DNA of 64,000 bases from Actinomyces denticolens (GTDB taxonomy: Bacteria > Actinomycetota > Actinomycetes > Actinomycetales > Actinomycetaceae). The stretch lies in the NCBI RefSeq assembly GCF_002072185.1, contig NZ_MVIW01000011.1, forward strand, positions 1 to 64,000, given 5' to 3'. The translations under genes were made by a program, and so were the position numbers. The stretch's first letter is position 1; each line of letters starts with the position of its first letter. Below are positions 3,102 to 15,695 of the stretch, one piece after another. The notes beneath the pieces are model-generated. The model saw only the letters and a program-made list of their open reading frames with translations, did no database searches and was not told the origin of the DNA.

Positions 3102-4553
3102 TCAGGACCTCTCAAGGGCCGCCGCGAGGGCGTCGAGGACCTGTAGGAGATGCCGGTCCGGCAGGAAGGAGCGGCGCACCGACTCGTGCGCCGTCGCCCC
3201 CATCTCCGCCGCCCGCTCGGGGAAGAGCAGCAGGTCCGCCACGGCCTGAGCCCAAGCAGCGCCGTCATGCGGATCCACGAGGACGCCGTCGACGCCGTCG
3301 GTCACCTGCGTGCGGATCCCCCCGACGCCGGAGGCCACCACGGGGGCCTTCTTCCACATCGCCTCGGCCACCGTCAGCCCGAAGGCCTCGACGATCGAGC
3401 GCTGGGTGACCACCGAACTCACTCGCTGCACGGCGTTGACCACGAGGGCGTTGACCTCCCGGTCCTGGGCGGGCACCGCCGCGATGTGGATGCGCGAGCG
3501 CGCTGCCGCGGGGAGGAGCTCGACGGCCTCGACGACCTCGTCCAGCACCCGCGCCGCTGCGGTGCCGCTCCCGGGGCGAGGGCCCACCAGCAGCAGGTGC
3601 GCGTCGTCGGGGAGGGCCCCGAGGTTCTCCGCGAAGGCGATCGCCACCTCCCTCATGCCCTTGAGCCGGTCCCAGCGCGAGACCTGCGTGATCGTCCGCG
3701 CCCCCAGCGGTACCGGGCCCCCGGCGCGCATGACGCCGCCCTCGCCGCCCTCGGCCGCCGCCCGGAGCGCGTCGGTCCGGCCGTCACCGCGGATGAAGGG
3801 GAAGGCGTCGAAGGGGGGCTCGCCGTCGAAGATCCCCGCCAGGCGCGCGATCGACCAGGCCTCGTCCATGTCGAGCACGCGGTTCTTGGGGCTGTCGGGG
3901 TTGATGGAGGGCGGGATGACGGCGCAGGCCTCGGGCTCGGTGAAGGGGGGCCGGTACTCCTCGCAGGAGACGATCACGTAGTCCGCATCCTCCAAGTAGC
4001 GGTCCAGGAAGGCCCAGGCGCGCTGGGCGTCCTCGACTCCCTCGGGGCCGGCGGTGGCGAGGTCCGCGCCCGCGTGGCAGCGCCACACGACGACGGCGCC
4101 CGCCGCCTTGAGCGGGCGCGCCAGGCCGGCGGTCGCGGGATCGTGGAGGATGACGATGTCGCCCTCGCGGACATCCCCGGCGATGTTCTCCGCATTGGAC
4201 GCCAGCGTGTGCTCGTAGAGGTCGCGCTCCTTGTCCCCCAGGCGGCCGCGGTCCCCGATGTCCCCGTGGATCCACGAGTGCAGGCGCCCGCTGAGGGCGG
4301 TGAACTCCGCCGGTGCGTCCAGGCACAGCCATCGGGCGTCGACGTCCAGGCCGCGGGCATAGCCCACCAGGGGGGCCACGGTCTCCACGGGGCCGGCGCC
4401 CGCCTGGTCCGTGGGGGTCACGGTCCACAGGGCGCGCCCCTCCAGGAGCGCCTGAGCGGCCGCCGCACCGTCGCGGAGCCGGTGCGCGGCGACCTCGTCG
4501 AGGTGGGGCTCGAGCTCGGACAGGGGCAGTGGAGCGACGTCGATGGTTCTCAT
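3102..4553 (-). CDS. GT4-family glycosyltransferase, TreT-like (trehalose synthase type)
   Basis: This 483-residue GT-B protein resembles TreT, the glycosyltransferring trehalose synthase that joins NDP-glucose and glucose. TreT-like signatures are VVWRCHAG, PPSINPDSPKNR and the C-terminal EAFGLTVAEAMWKKAPVVA, whose Glu389-x7-Glu397 is the GT4 donor-binding motif. The start is ATG at 4553; an in-frame start 59 codons upstream would run through purL's leader and adds low-complexity sequence. It lies inverted between purQ and purL, divergent from purL by 175 bp. The exact product (trehalose or another glycoside) cannot be read from sequence, and no trehalose-metabolism neighbour is present to settle it. 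Confidence 0.8.
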   Translation of the reverse strand: MRTIDVAPLPLSELEPHLDEVAAHRLRDGAAAAQALLEGRALWTVTPTDQAGAGPVETVAPLVGYARGLDVDARWLCLDAPAEFTALSGRLHSWIHGDIGDRGRLGDKERDLYEHTLASNAENIAGDVREGDIVILHDPATAGLARPLKAAGAVVVWRCHAGADLATAGPEGVEDAQRAWAFLDRYLEDADYVIVSCEEYRPPFTEPEACAVIPPSINPDSPKNRVLDMDEAWSIARLAGIFDGEPPFDAFPFIRGDGRTDALRAAAEGGEGGVMRAGGPVPLGARTITQVSRWDRLKGMREVAIAFAENLGALPDDAHLLLVGPRPGSGTAAARVLDEVVEAVELLPAAARSRIHIAAVPAQDREVNALVVNAVQRVSSVVTQRSIVEAFGLTVAEAMWKKAPVVASGVGGIRTQVTDGVDGVLVDPHDGAAWAQAVADLLLFPERAAEMGATAHESVRRSFLPDRHLLQVLDALAAALERS

Positions 4554-4728
4554 GGCACGATCTTGCCCTGTCCGCGTGTGAGAGGGCGCACCTTTGGGGC
4601 GCGTCTTCATCTCGAATCGCCGAGCGCGCCCCTCGACCGGCTCACCTGGGGGACCCATGACCGGCCGCTCCCACCTGCCGGGTATCCTCGGTCGTGGCCC
4701 CCTCCCGCTCACCCCCAGGAGCAGCCGC

Positions 4729-7101
4729 ATGGCTCACACAGCCCGCACCGCTGAGACCGCCCCCCGCCCCGTGGAGCACCCCGACACCGTCGCCGACGCC
4801 GCGGCGACGCCCGATCAGGCGATGCCCTGGGCCGAGCTCGGCCTCAAGGCCGACGAGTACGAGGACATCAAGCGCCTCCTCGGCCGCCGCCCCACTACCG
4901 CCGAGCTCGCCATGTACTCGGTCATGTGGTCCGAGCACTGCTCCTACAAGTCCTCCAAGAAGCACCTGCGGCAGTTCGGCGCCAAGGTCACCCCTGAGAT
5001 GAAGAAGCACCTGCTCGTCGGCATGGGGGAGAACGCCGGCGTCGTCGACATCGGCGACGGCTGGGCCGTCACCTACAAGGTCGAGTCCCACAACCACCCC
5101 AGCTTCGTGGAGCCCTACCAGGGCGCCGCCACCGGCGTGGGCGGGATCGTCCGCGACATCATCTCCATGGGAGCCCGGCCCGTGGCCGTCATGGATCAAC
5201 TGCGCTTCGGCGCCGTAGACCACCCTGATACTGCCCGCGTCGTCCACGGCGTCGTGGCGGGTGTGGGCGGCTACGGCAACTGCCTGGGCCTGCCCAATAT
5301 CGGCGGTGAGACCGAGTTCGACTCCTCCTACCAGGAGAACCCCCTGGTCAACGCCCTGTGCGTCGGCGTGCTGCGCCACGAGGACATCCACCTAGCCAAC
5401 GCCTCCGGGGCAGGCAATCAGGTGGTGCTCTTTGGGGCGCGCACCGGCGGCGACGGCATCGGCGGGGCCTCCATCCTGGCTTCTGAGTCCTTTGAGGACG
5501 GCATGCCCGCCAAGCGCCCCAGTGTGCAGGTGGGCGACCCCTTCATGGAGAAGGTTCTGATCGAATGCTGCCTGGACCTATTCCAGGCGGGGCTAGTCCT
5601 CGGCATTCAAGACCTTGGCGCTGCCGGTATCTCCTGCGCCACCAGTGAGCTCGCCTCTAACGGAGACGGCGGCATGCACGTGGACCTGGAGAATGTCCTG
5701 CTGCGCGACCCCACCCTCACTGCGGGCGAGATCCTCATGAGCGAGTCGCAGGAGCGCATGATGGCCGTCGTCGCCCCCGACAGGCTCGACGACTTCATGG
5801 CCGTCATCGACAAGTGGGACGTCGAGGCCGCCGTCATCGGCGAGGTCAACGGCTCCGGCCGCCTGACCATCGACCACTTCGGGGAGCGCATCGTGGATGT
5901 GGACCCGCGCACGGTCGCCCACGAGGGCCCCACCTACGACCGCCCCTACGCGCGCCCCTCCTGGCAGGACGCCCTCAATGCGGATACCACCGCGCGCCTG
6001 CCCCGACCCGAGAGTGCCCAGGACCTCGCCGAGCAGATCCGCGCGCTCGTGACCAGCCCCAATCAGGCCTCGCCCGCCTGGGTCACCGACCAGTACGACC
6101 GCTTCGTGCGCGGTGACACCGCCCTGGCCCAGCCCGACGACGCCGGTGTCATCCGCGTGGACGAGGCCACCGGCCGGGGCATCGCCATCGCCACCGACGC
6201 CAACGGCCGCTTCACCAAGCTCGACCCGGCCACCGGCGCCGCCCAGGCCCTGGCCGAGTCCTACCGCAATGTCTGCACGGTGGGCGCCCGGCCCCTAGCC
6301 GTCACCGACTGCCTCAACTTCGGCTCTCCCGAGGACCCTGACGCCATGTGGCAGCTTGTGCAGGCCATCACCGGTTTGGCCGACGCCTGCCAAGAGATGG
6401 GCGTGCCCGTCACCGGCGGTAACGTCTCCCTGTACAACTCTCACGGCAAGGTCAAGGGTCTGATTGACTCCTCCATCAACCCCACCCCCGTGGTGGGCGT
6501 GCTGGGCGTCATGGACGACGTGCGTCGCGCCAACCCCTCCGGCTGGCACGAAGAGGGCCTGGCGGTGGTGGCCCTGGGGGTCACCGCCGCGGAGCTTGAC
6601 GGCTCCGCTTGGTCCCGCATCATTCACGACCACCTGGGCGGCCTGCCGCCGCACGTGGACCTGGCCGCAGAAATGGCTTTAGGGCGAGTGCTGCTGGCCC
6701 TCTCCGCGGCAGATCTGCCCGACGACGGCGGCCGGGTGCTGCGGGCTGCCCACGACCTGTCCAACGGCGGCCTAATCCAGTCCTTGGTAGACGCTGTACT
6801 GCGCAGTGGCGTGGGCGCCAGCATTGATTTGGGCCAAATCCAGGGGCGTGACCAGGTGGACGACTTCACCGCCCTGTTCTCCGAGTCCGGTGCCCGGGCC
6901 CTGGTGGCCGTGCCGGAGGTGGCCCTGCGGGTGGTGGCCGCCGCCGCTGAGGCAGAGGGTGTGGCTTGGGCGCGGATCGGCACCACCGGCGGCGACCTGC
7001 TGGTAGTCACCGGCACCGACCTGCTGGCTGAAGCGCCGTTGGTTCTGGAGCTTTCCGAGCTGCGCGACGCCGTCGAGGCCACCCTGCCCGCGTTGTTCTG
7101 A
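4729..7101 (+). CDS. purL: Phosphoribosylformylglycinamidine synthase, PurL subunit
   Basis: This 790-residue small-type PurL catalyses ATP-dependent conversion of FGAR to FGAM with ammonia from PurQ. Visible are [15 protein letters not shown] near the N-terminus, the nucleotide-binding [23 protein letters not shown], and the second half with [12 protein letters not shown] and [10 protein letters not shown]. The start is ATG 4729, preceded by AGGAG at 4717-4721; a longer in-frame extension from 4594 lacks a ribosome-binding site and overlaps the divergent promoter gap. The gene stands alone, separated from purSQ by the inverted glycosyltransferase. Confidence 0.95.
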
Positions 7102-12374: not shown

Positions 12375-12848
12375 ATGAGCACGACCAGCGATCCGACCAC
12401 CGATCCAGCCACTGCCACCCCCGACCCCGCCTTCGAGGCCGTCAACGTCTTCGGCACCGGTGAGCCGAACACGGCCTTCGCCCAGTACTTCAGAGGTCAG
12501 TCCTTCCTCCGGCAGATCATCACCGACCCCGAGTGCGCCGTCGGCGTCCACAACGTCACCTTCGCCCCCGGATGCCGCAACAACTGGCACATCCACCACG
12601 CCACCACCGGCGGCGGGCAGGTGCTCCTGTGCACCGCGGGCTCGGGCTGGTACCAGGAGGAGGGCGCGGAGCCAGTGCCCATGGCCCCCGGCACGGCGGT
12701 TTTCGCGCGGGCCGGCGTCAAGCACTGGCACGGCGCGGCGGCCGACTCGTGGTTCAGCCACATCGCGCTCGCGGTCCCCGGTGAGAACGTCTCCAATGAG
12801 TGGCTGGAGCCCGTCGACGAGGACCTCTACAACAGCCTCGGCGCCTGA
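12375..12848 (+). CDS. Small cupin-domain protein
   Basis: This 157-residue single-domain cupin follows about 30 disordered N-terminal residues. Metal-binding histidines are visible in the first motif (HIHHAT, near residue 73) and the second (KHWHGA, near residue 117), so it probably holds a divalent metal. The layout resembles cupins fused to or found beside carboxymuconolactone decarboxylases, or quercetinase-like proteins, but no substrate can be assigned. The gene has its own GA-rich ribosome-binding region and is followed directly by a 120-bp repeat element. Confidence 0.85.
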   Translation: MSTTSDPTTDPATATPDPAFEAVNVFGTGEPNTAFAQYFRGQSFLRQIITDPECAVGVHNVTFAPGCRNNWHIHHATTGGGQVLLCTAGSGWYQEEGAEPVPMAPGTAVFARAGVKHWHGAAADSWFSHIALAVPGENVSNEWLEPVDEDLYNSLGA

Positions 12849-12870: not shown

Positions 12871-12990
12871 TGTCAATCCTGCTGCCGTGGCGTGCGAGTC
12901 ATGCGCGGCGGGCGAGGAGGATCGTTGGAATCATGCGGCCTGCTCGCGGGTCCGTGGCGCCGCCGTCCCTCCACGGCAGCAGAAATGACA
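12871..12990. repeat. 120-bp repeat element, copy 1, with 20-bp terminal inverted repeats
   Basis: The element starts TGTCAATCCTGCTGCCGTGG and ends CCACGGCAGCAGAAATGACA. The end reverse-complemented matches the start at 18 of 20 positions. It is 97% identical over 120 bp to 14021-14140 in the same orientation. The form resembles a MITE or a large REP-type hairpin. It contains no transposase. Confidence 0.85.
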
Positions 12991-13015
12991 GCCGGTTCCA
13001 GAGGCAGGACGGTTC

Positions 13016-13933
13016 TCAACGGGAGAGGGTGAAGGGGCCGACTCCACGGGGGACGAGTCGGGTCGCGCCCGGATGCGCCGCGATGACGGCGAGCACCTCG
13101 CCCACGAAGCTTCCCGTTCTCACCTGCCTCCCCGTGAAGCGGATGAGGACGAGCCCCAGTCTTGCCACGTCGCGGCTGCGGGCGTCATCCTGCTCCAGCG
13201 ACCACATATCCGAGTGGTAGTCGAAACCATCGAGCTCGATCACCAGCCACCCGTTGACGACGAGGTCGACCTCGCCAATGCCTCGGATGACGACGCCCTC
13301 GTCGACTTCGAGCCCCGCTGCCCGCAGGCGCAGCCGGGCGAGCGTTTCGATCGGGCTGCGCGATCGGGTTGAGGTCATTGCCAGGCGGCGACGACCGGTG
13401 TCGAATCGAGGGGGCGAGAGGAGGGCGATCAGCTCGGGCAGCGTCACAGTGCCCTGCTTCAGCGGCGCATCGGCGGCGGCGATGGCGAGCTCGTCATCCG
13501 GATCCCACTGCAGGAGGTCCGCGACGGTCTCGGCGAGTGGGAGAACGGGATAGGCGGTGACCTCTGGAAGCGCGAGCCCCCGCCTGCTCCGGAGGCGCTC
13601 GCGGCCCAGAGGACTCATCCGCCCGCCGTGGGGAATGACGATGGTGATTGGCCCGAGGCGGCTGGGCAGCGGGAGCTGGTGGTACGCGGCGGCATGGTGG
13701 CCGGCGATGACTCCTCCGTGGATACGAGCGAGCAGGACGAGACGGCTGCAACCGGGCAGCGAGAGAGTCCCATGCCGGTGGAGCTCGAGGTCGCCCCCAT
13801 CGATGAGGGCGTCAATGCGACGTCGGTCCGCGCGGGTCGGATGGAGGTCCGCGCGGCGAACCGCGCCATGGCAATCGCGCACGCGGGCCAGGAGCCGCTC
13901 ATCGGGATCGGCTCCCGTGGGGAATGGGGCCAT
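13016..13933 (-). CDS. DUF559-type endonuclease-like protein with AbiEi-like N-terminal domain
   Basis: This is a 305-residue protein. The first about 70 residues (RVRDCHGAVRRADL, then RRIDALIDGGDLELHRHGTLSL) look like the winged-helix domain found in AbiEi antitoxins and related actinobacterial proteins. The C-terminal about 120 residues have the DUF559/Vsr-like PD-(D/E)xK pattern: GIGEVDLVVNGWLVIELDG, then a basic/aromatic helix and LVLIRFTGRQV. The putative catalytic residues are Asp and Glu in EVDLV and IELDG. The start at ATG 13933 lacks a clear ribosome-binding site; a TTG start at 14026 would lie inside the flanking repeat. The gene sits alone between two near-identical 120-bp repeats. 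Whether it cuts DNA or acts in defence is inference. Confidence 0.75.
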   Translation of the reverse strand: MAPFPTGADPDERLLARVRDCHGAVRRADLHPTRADRRRIDALIDGGDLELHRHGTLSLPGCSRLVLLARIHGGVIAGHHAAAYHQLPLPSRLGPITIVIPHGGRMSPLGRERLRSRRGLALPEVTAYPVLPLAETVADLLQWDPDDELAIAAADAPLKQGTVTLPELIALLSPPRFDTGRRRLAMTSTRSRSPIETLARLRLRAAGLEVDEGVVIRGIGEVDLVVNGWLVIELDGFDYHSDMWSLEQDDARSRDVARLGLVLIRFTGRQVRTGSFVGEVLAVIAAHPGATRLVPRGVGPFTLSR

Positions 13934-14020
13934 GGGAGGAGTCTGCCTGATCCGGGTACGGCGGGCAGGATGTTGGAGCGCTGGGCTTGTAGGGCCTCTT
14001 GATCGGTCCGGGCGCCCTTT

Positions 14021-14140
14021 CGTCAATCCTGCTGCCGTGGCGCGCGCGTCATGCGCGGCGGGCGAGGAGGATCGTTGGAATCATGCGGCCGGCTCGCGGG
14101 TCCGTGGCGCCGCCGTCCCTCCACGGCAGCAGAAATGACA
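14021..14140. repeat. 120-bp repeat element, copy 2
   Basis: This is a direct repeat of 12871-12990 with 4 mismatches in 120 bp. It has the same terminal inverted repeats, apart from a C for T at the first base. It lies 87 bp upstream of the nuclease-like gene's start and about 220 bp before gdhA. Confidence 0.85.

Positions 14141-14330: not shown

Positions 14331-15695
<1,365 letters not shown>

Follow-up and report, generated by a model that had tools for sequence, protein, structure and literature searches.

The window, a 64,000-nucleotide stretch of the Actinomyces denticolens genome, carries between a cupin gene and the glutamate dehydrogenase gene (gdh) a single open frame on the minus strand, bracketed by two 120-bp elements that we call family A (Table 1). 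The two copies lie in the same orientation and are four substitutions apart (positions 1, 23, 27, and 71 of 120), with one gene between them, as the first-pass annotation had described. Its statement that the 20-bp inverted arms match at 18 of 20 positions in each copy holds for element 1 only; element 2, which begins with C, pairs at 17 of 20.

Table 1. Positions in the window of the nuclease gene, its bracket elements, and the neighboring genes.
Feature	Position	Strand	Remarks
Cupin gene	12375..12848	+	Left neighbor, context only
Bracket element 1, family A	12871..12990	+	120 bp; 25 bp 3′ of the nuclease stop codon
Element 1, left arm	12871..12890	+	TGTCAATCCTGCTGCCGTGG
Element 1, center motif	12923..12938	+	CGTTGGAATCATGCGG; positions 53-68 of 120
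Element 1, right arm	12971..12990	-	
Nuclease gene	13016..13933	-	One open frame, 305 aa; likely start ATG 13933, stop 13016
Vsr-like/EDxHD nuclease fold (predicted)	13067..13357	-	Residues 193-289
AbiEi-antitoxin-like fold (predicted)	13370..13909	-	Residues 9-188; winged helix and second domain
Bracket element 2, family A	14021..14140	+	120 bp; 87 bp 5′ of the nuclease ATG
Element 2, center motif	14073..14088	+	
Glutamate dehydrogenase gene (gdh)	14358..15695	+	Right neighbor, context only

A protein model predicts two parts for the product of the bracketed gene, a DNA-binding region of the AbiEi type and, fused to it, a nuclease domain of the Vsr/EDxHD type. Among 27 homologs, E196 and D223 are invariant, and E233, D235, H240, and D249 are found in at least 90%; we take these acidic and histidine residues to be those that give the EDxHD motif its name. 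The matches to sequence libraries are weak. Those to Pfam fall below the curated cut-offs (MTES_1575, E 3e-5; DUF559, E 0.019), two marginal matches to NCBIfam lie far under theirs, and annotation of defense systems yielded only weak AbiEi matches. No AbiEii (DUF1814) toxin gene was present among the two neighbors scanned, cupin and glutamate dehydrogenase. Comparison of the gene with that of Actinomyces timonensis gave a dN of 0.09 and a dS of 0.61. Homologs are present in 41 of 49 Actinomyces genomes, with 0 to 7 per genome. A. denticolens itself has a second nuclease gene (on C69), whose product is 32% identical to that of the window, and a third homolog, a fragment devoid of elements (C12, locus L358; 41% identity over 131 aa).

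A REP-like element was among the possibilities named in the first-pass annotation, and a count of copies supports an element of this type, dispersed and ending in inverted repeats. The A. denticolens assembly (2.83 Mb, 90 contigs) contains eight family-A elements of 120 to 121 bp, including the two brackets, which share 20-bp inverted arms and a center motif, diverged in some; the six others have arms like TGTCAATYCTGCTGCCGTGG and diverged interiors. Searched with up to two mismatches, the inner motif GATCGTTGGAATCATGCGG was present in 35 of the 49 Actinomyces genomes, with a maximum of 34 copies in one, and the reversed motif used as a control in none of the 49. A template search of genome_contigs (84,980 species) gave 96 stretches, each with Actinomyces in its title; entries for this genome itself, or for a very close one, may be missing from this result. 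The presence of eight copies in the genome and of relatives across the genus thus rules out a purely local duplication.

We then considered the anatomy of the elements. Of 60 motif loci, taken from five other genomes and from C22 of this genome, 53 showed an element of 119 to 123 bp starting with TGTC or CGTC, with a 19-base motif at offset 48 to 50; five gave no arms under the rule used, and two (L131 and L145) had odd lengths. The arm sequences of such motif-bearing elements vary between subfamilies. Sixty-one elements were kept, eight loci of this genome being among those considered. In the 42 that measure exactly 120 bp, conservation is concentrated in the arms and the central 16 bp. Their arms form 728 Watson-Crick and 25 G-U pairs, with 87 other positions, as compared with 445, 149, and 750, respectively, at the inner positions. 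The symmetry is thus that of DNA, limited to the arms, and not that of an RNA stem. Of the GTAG or CGTC tags that mark the short hairpins of REP/REPIN elements, GTAG was not found at the ends read. CGTC is present at one end in five of the eight family-A elements (w2, C17, C8, C11, and C6), where it represents a T-to-C change at the first base of an arm whose partner is 80 bp away, rather than a tag on a 20- to 40-bp hairpin.

Several loci showed other arrangements. At L092:1449-3019, a frame at 2438-2770 that resembles a HigA antitoxin gene is located between two elements in direct orientation, spaced by about 1.45 kb (1454 bases from one motif start to the next). In A. ruminicola (L208:4038-5052), the space of about 0.8 kb between two elements contains a frame of 262 aa (4122-4910), which may be a further case of a bracketed gene. 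The elements of G051 with TGTCACTGATTGCACCACTTT-like arms (L126, L127, L129, L130, L132, L133, and L135) have flanks that are alike well past the arms, and were therefore probably copied within longer units. In G006 and G003 (L159-L165, L167, and L169), a repeat of about 700 to 750 bp, present in several copies per genome and with ends like TGTGTTGTCTCATGACTTCTGAGA in most of them, encloses a TGTCCACAGCGCTGACATTAAC-type element. An Actinomyces-1 RNA (RF02928, 103 bits) is located at L159:233-343, about 1.1 kb from the element.

We investigated the association between gene and element with a uniform rule (arms matching at 16 or more of 20 positions, length 100 to 145 bp, at most 400 bp from the gene) applied to 100 homologous Actinomyces loci. 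These loci cover 101 of the 104 homolog matches, those left out being G054, G008, and G011:C66:71780. An element was found on both sides of the gene in 43 loci, on one side in 32, and on neither in 25. The proportions were 26, 10, and 3 for the 39 best hits (L272-L310, E up to 9e-44) and 17, 22, and 22 for the 61 more distant paralogs. The three best hits without elements were L280, L286, and L289; the first two have arms at 15/20 in a search anchored on GTC..GAC ends and a length of 114 to 127 bp, a rule that produced six matches, every one at 14/20, on shuffles of the 100 loci. None of the controls yielded elements on both sides. The uniform rule gave one-sided elements in 3 of 30 gdh loci (27 had none), a set that includes the window's own locus with its element within 400 bp, in 2 of 100 shuffled loci (98 had none), and in 36 of 200 random places (164 had none), the last in stretches picked because they hold an element. 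In an analysis of distances and pair likeness restricted to loci with anchored-rule matches, plus two placed by alignment (L274 and L305), 33 of the 39 best-hit loci also had an element 8 to 115 bp past the aligned gene stretch, and the distances on the 5′ side ranged from -5 to 197 bp.

Bracketing thus recurs around homologs of about 40% protein identity with different arms, which indicates that gene and element belong together. Chance capture of the gene, whether in a composite unit or by a MITE, is not supported. Among the best hits, the center is kept although the arms differ, and the distant paralogs have other arms, lengths (about 100 to 140 bp), and centers. Outside the genus, we collected 21 loci from 12 of 14 genomes of other families of the same order and counted 20 of them, leaving out the short L420. 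Eighteen had no element and two had one on both sides at 16/20; at 17/20, none of the 20 had an element on either or both sides. The nuclease family therefore has no need of such elements, and the bracketing architecture has so far been seen only in Actinomyces.

The second nuclease gene of A. denticolens is bracketed by a distinct family, B, with the arms TGGCGAGGTTTGAGGATT. The family-B arm core has 37 matches in this genome, versus 2 for its reversed control, and 36 of the 37 form 18 inverted pairs, i.e., 2 brackets and 16 solo elements, in two size classes. Similarly, the arm of the Actinomyces israelii nuclease has 39 matches in its own genome, 36 of them in 18 inverted pairs, of which 16 are exactly 120 bp long, 2 being the brackets; no more than three matches were present in any of the 48 other genomes. 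Judging from these counts, the arms are gene-specific. One element, at G000:C22:6020-6129, has family-B arms around an exact family-A center motif, showing that arms and center can be combined. The center motif averages 8.9 copies in the 31 genomes with a best-hit gene and 0.83 copies in the 18 genomes lacking one (Mann-Whitney p 1e-4, bracket copies included and phylogeny not corrected). At the level of genome sequences, these comparisons show that gene and element are associated.

Sequence comparisons also bear on the turnover of the elements. In 22 of 32 bracket pairs, the likeness of the two copies reaches 85% or more in one of the two orientations, direct for 19 and inverted for 3, versus 55% on average between loci. 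The bodies of the family-B elements at C2 and C10 are 82 to 84% alike to the C69 brackets, and their 30-bp flanks 37 to 57% (median background, 40%). For three solo family-A sites shared with A. timonensis (C4, C8, and C11), whose flanks are 78 to 90% alike, 33 to 35 of 40 arm positions agree, 12 to 14 of 16 in the center, and 23 to 42 of 64 in the spacers; these counts are ungapped, which omits C32 (121 versus 120 bp), and small cancelling indels make the spacer divergence overstated. With that reservation, the aligned sites show the inner spacers to change faster than the arms. Movement of the elements, on the other hand, appears to be slow, as A. timonensis carries an element at the position corresponding to four of the six solo sites (C4, C8, C32, and C11). 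At C6, that genome has the right flank without an element, only the right junction being placed, and C17 could not be aligned. No precise empty site was found among 286 loci, which gave one weak and uninformative pair, or by comparison of the six solo sites with A. timonensis. As had been noted for the window copies, no target-site duplication was evident by eye, here in 17 family-B and 8 A. israelii copies.

The unit formed by the gene and its two elements sits between the cupin gene and gdh in both the window and A. timonensis. At ten of the 29 gdh loci from relatives, 141 to 365 bp separate the cupin match from the gdh match, with neither gene nor element between them, and from this alignment of gene orders the unit is an insertion relative to those ten loci. 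A repeat found only here, with the gene always present, is thus contradicted by the gene-free spacing as well as by the eight copies; at these ten loci the gene is absent, and no single repeat is left behind. Fifteen further gdh loci have no cupin match upstream, L409 has a cupin match about 1.1 kb away, and L383 and L384, the closest by gdh after A. timonensis, have no cupin, gene, or element within the 1.5 kb read. The center motif of the brackets points in opposite directions relative to the gene in the window and in A. timonensis. The identity of the bracket interiors is 0.50 to 0.60 when aligned and 0.45 to 0.51 when flipped, versus 0.415 for shuffled sequences. A simple inversion of the brackets was therefore not retained, and with inner identity low in both senses, replacement and inversion cannot be told apart.

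Taken together, these observations make it probable, if by no means secure, that the 120-bp elements are the recognition sites of the bracketed nuclease, gene and elements forming one selfish or domesticated, REPtron-like system. A protein that combines AbiEi and EDxHD halves, encoded beside an element whose two inverted arms stand a nearly fixed distance apart, points to binding as a pair, followed by cutting and then by repair from another copy. The AbiEi of Streptococcus agalactiae is described as binding two 23-bp inverted repeats and bending promoter DNA (PMC7319586), and I-Bth0305I as dimerizing on a target of nearly 60 bp (PMC3943268). We infer that the AbiEi-like half would bind both inverted arms, and that the Vsr/EDxHD-like half would cut inside or beside the element. 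The break would then be repaired from another copy of the element, with the arms providing homology. By this route, element bodies would be transferred to other sites, in one orientation or the other, length and arms would stay constant, and arms would become homogeneous within each genome; through its two flanking elements, the gene would stay next to its own sites. This model could account for the constant length, the gene-specific arms, the turnover of spacers, and the two orientations. That the gene acts on its own flanks, as first suggested from the window, is thus kept as plausible.

Other mechanisms can be envisaged. An AbiEi-like autorepressor might bind the arms as operators, the brackets regulating its own gene and the solo copies others, with the nuclease domain secondary. 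The fold matches AbiEi, AbiEi proteins bind inverted repeats, in pairs, within the promoter that drives their own expression (PMC7319586), and each gene has its own arms. This proposal accounts for binding, but neither for the 3′ element found at most best-hit loci, with variable distances on the 5′ side, nor for the likeness of bracket pairs in either orientation, which repression does not need; in addition, the nuclease residues are conserved. We regard it as unlikely. Slightly more doubtful still is a true transposon, in which the nuclease itself would excise or insert the elements, with solo elements as nonautonomous copies. TnsA-type nucleases take part in transposition, the solo elements are multicopy, and the unit behaves as an insertion between cupin and gdh. 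However, Foldseek returned TnsA only at E > 1, and no strand-transfer domain was found among the structural matches of the protein model. Target-site duplication is not evident, homologs are few in each genome, and no multiplied whole unit was present in the loci read.

An ordinary MITE family moved by an unlinked IS transposase, with brackets arising by insertion preference, appears very improbable. Length, inverted ends, and dispersal would fit, as would the presence of a TGTCCACAGCGC-type element within the larger repeat of G006 and G003 (about 750 bp), which has ends of its own. Nevertheless, dozens of loci of one gene family are bracketed with different arms, whereas none of the gdh, shuffled, or random controls has elements on both sides. 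The center is kept in the best-hit group in spite of differing arms, target duplication is not evident, and among the loci read there was no parent transposon sharing these ends. Finally, a structured RNA or transcription terminator is the least credible possibility: the window copies do fold well as RNA when checked (z -5.3 and -2.0, + strand), but no element in the window stretch and 20 loci matched Rfam above the gathering score (mir-8521 on the L122 element, with scores of 32 and 26.5 bits, stayed below its cut-off of 80), and the symmetry is restricted to the arms.

The favored reading, that of a nuclease acting on its own elements, invites comparison with known systems. In REP/REPIN-RAYT REPtrons, and in TIRtrons with TIRYT, a gene likewise lies between short units, palindromic or with inverted repeats, whose further copies are scattered through the same genome, as is the case here. 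Each gene lineage of the RAYT and TIRYT systems has its own repeat, and the gene is not multiplied (PMC3116915; PMC3733652). Although the layout is alike, this is not a REP/RAYT system, since no Y1 transposase (Y1_Tnp, PF01797) was found in the 49 genomes at E 0.001; the control was positive in 5 of 14. In place of the HUH Y1 transposase of REPtrons, there is a Vsr/EDxHD-type nuclease with an AbiEi-like half, and the elements have a near-constant length and a center motif. EDxHD homing endonucleases such as I-Bth0305I share the predicted Vsr-like fold with its conserved acidic and His residues, but the window gene lies outside any intron or intein, and its presumed sites, intact and present repeatedly, are found on either side of it. 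In contrast with the AbiEi of type IV toxin-antitoxin systems, the AbiEi-like region is fused to a nuclease domain and has cupin and glutamate dehydrogenase genes as neighbors. MITEs are also short and dispersed with terminal inverted repeats, but the elements described here are tied to a specific nuclease gene and have a conserved center, and no target duplication is evident by eye.

In the open-license literature, we found no report that ties DUF559/AbiEi nucleases to such dispersed elements. A nuclease together with the repeats that it probably recognizes looks like a new kind of partnership. It may represent a new class of system, mobile or domesticated, whose AbiEi-EDxHD nuclease would sustain and spread a genome-wide family of fixed-length inverted-repeat elements through cutting and forced gene conversion, with co-evolution of nuclease specificity and arms; we consider the chances of such a REPtron built on homing-endonuclease chemistry, rather than on a HUH transposase, to be evenly balanced. 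Beyond RAYT-linked families, the origin and persistence of short palindromic repeats in bacterial genomes are open questions (cf. Di Nocera et al.). In many Actinomyces species, both location and arm sequence link a nuclease of a different class to repeats of its own, and A. denticolens has two such families. As each genome would provide a natural enzyme/site pair, comparison across genomes could reveal the rule that links protein to arm. If true, this would suggest a role for a group of DUF559/AbiEi-type proteins, which the libraries scanned name only weakly.
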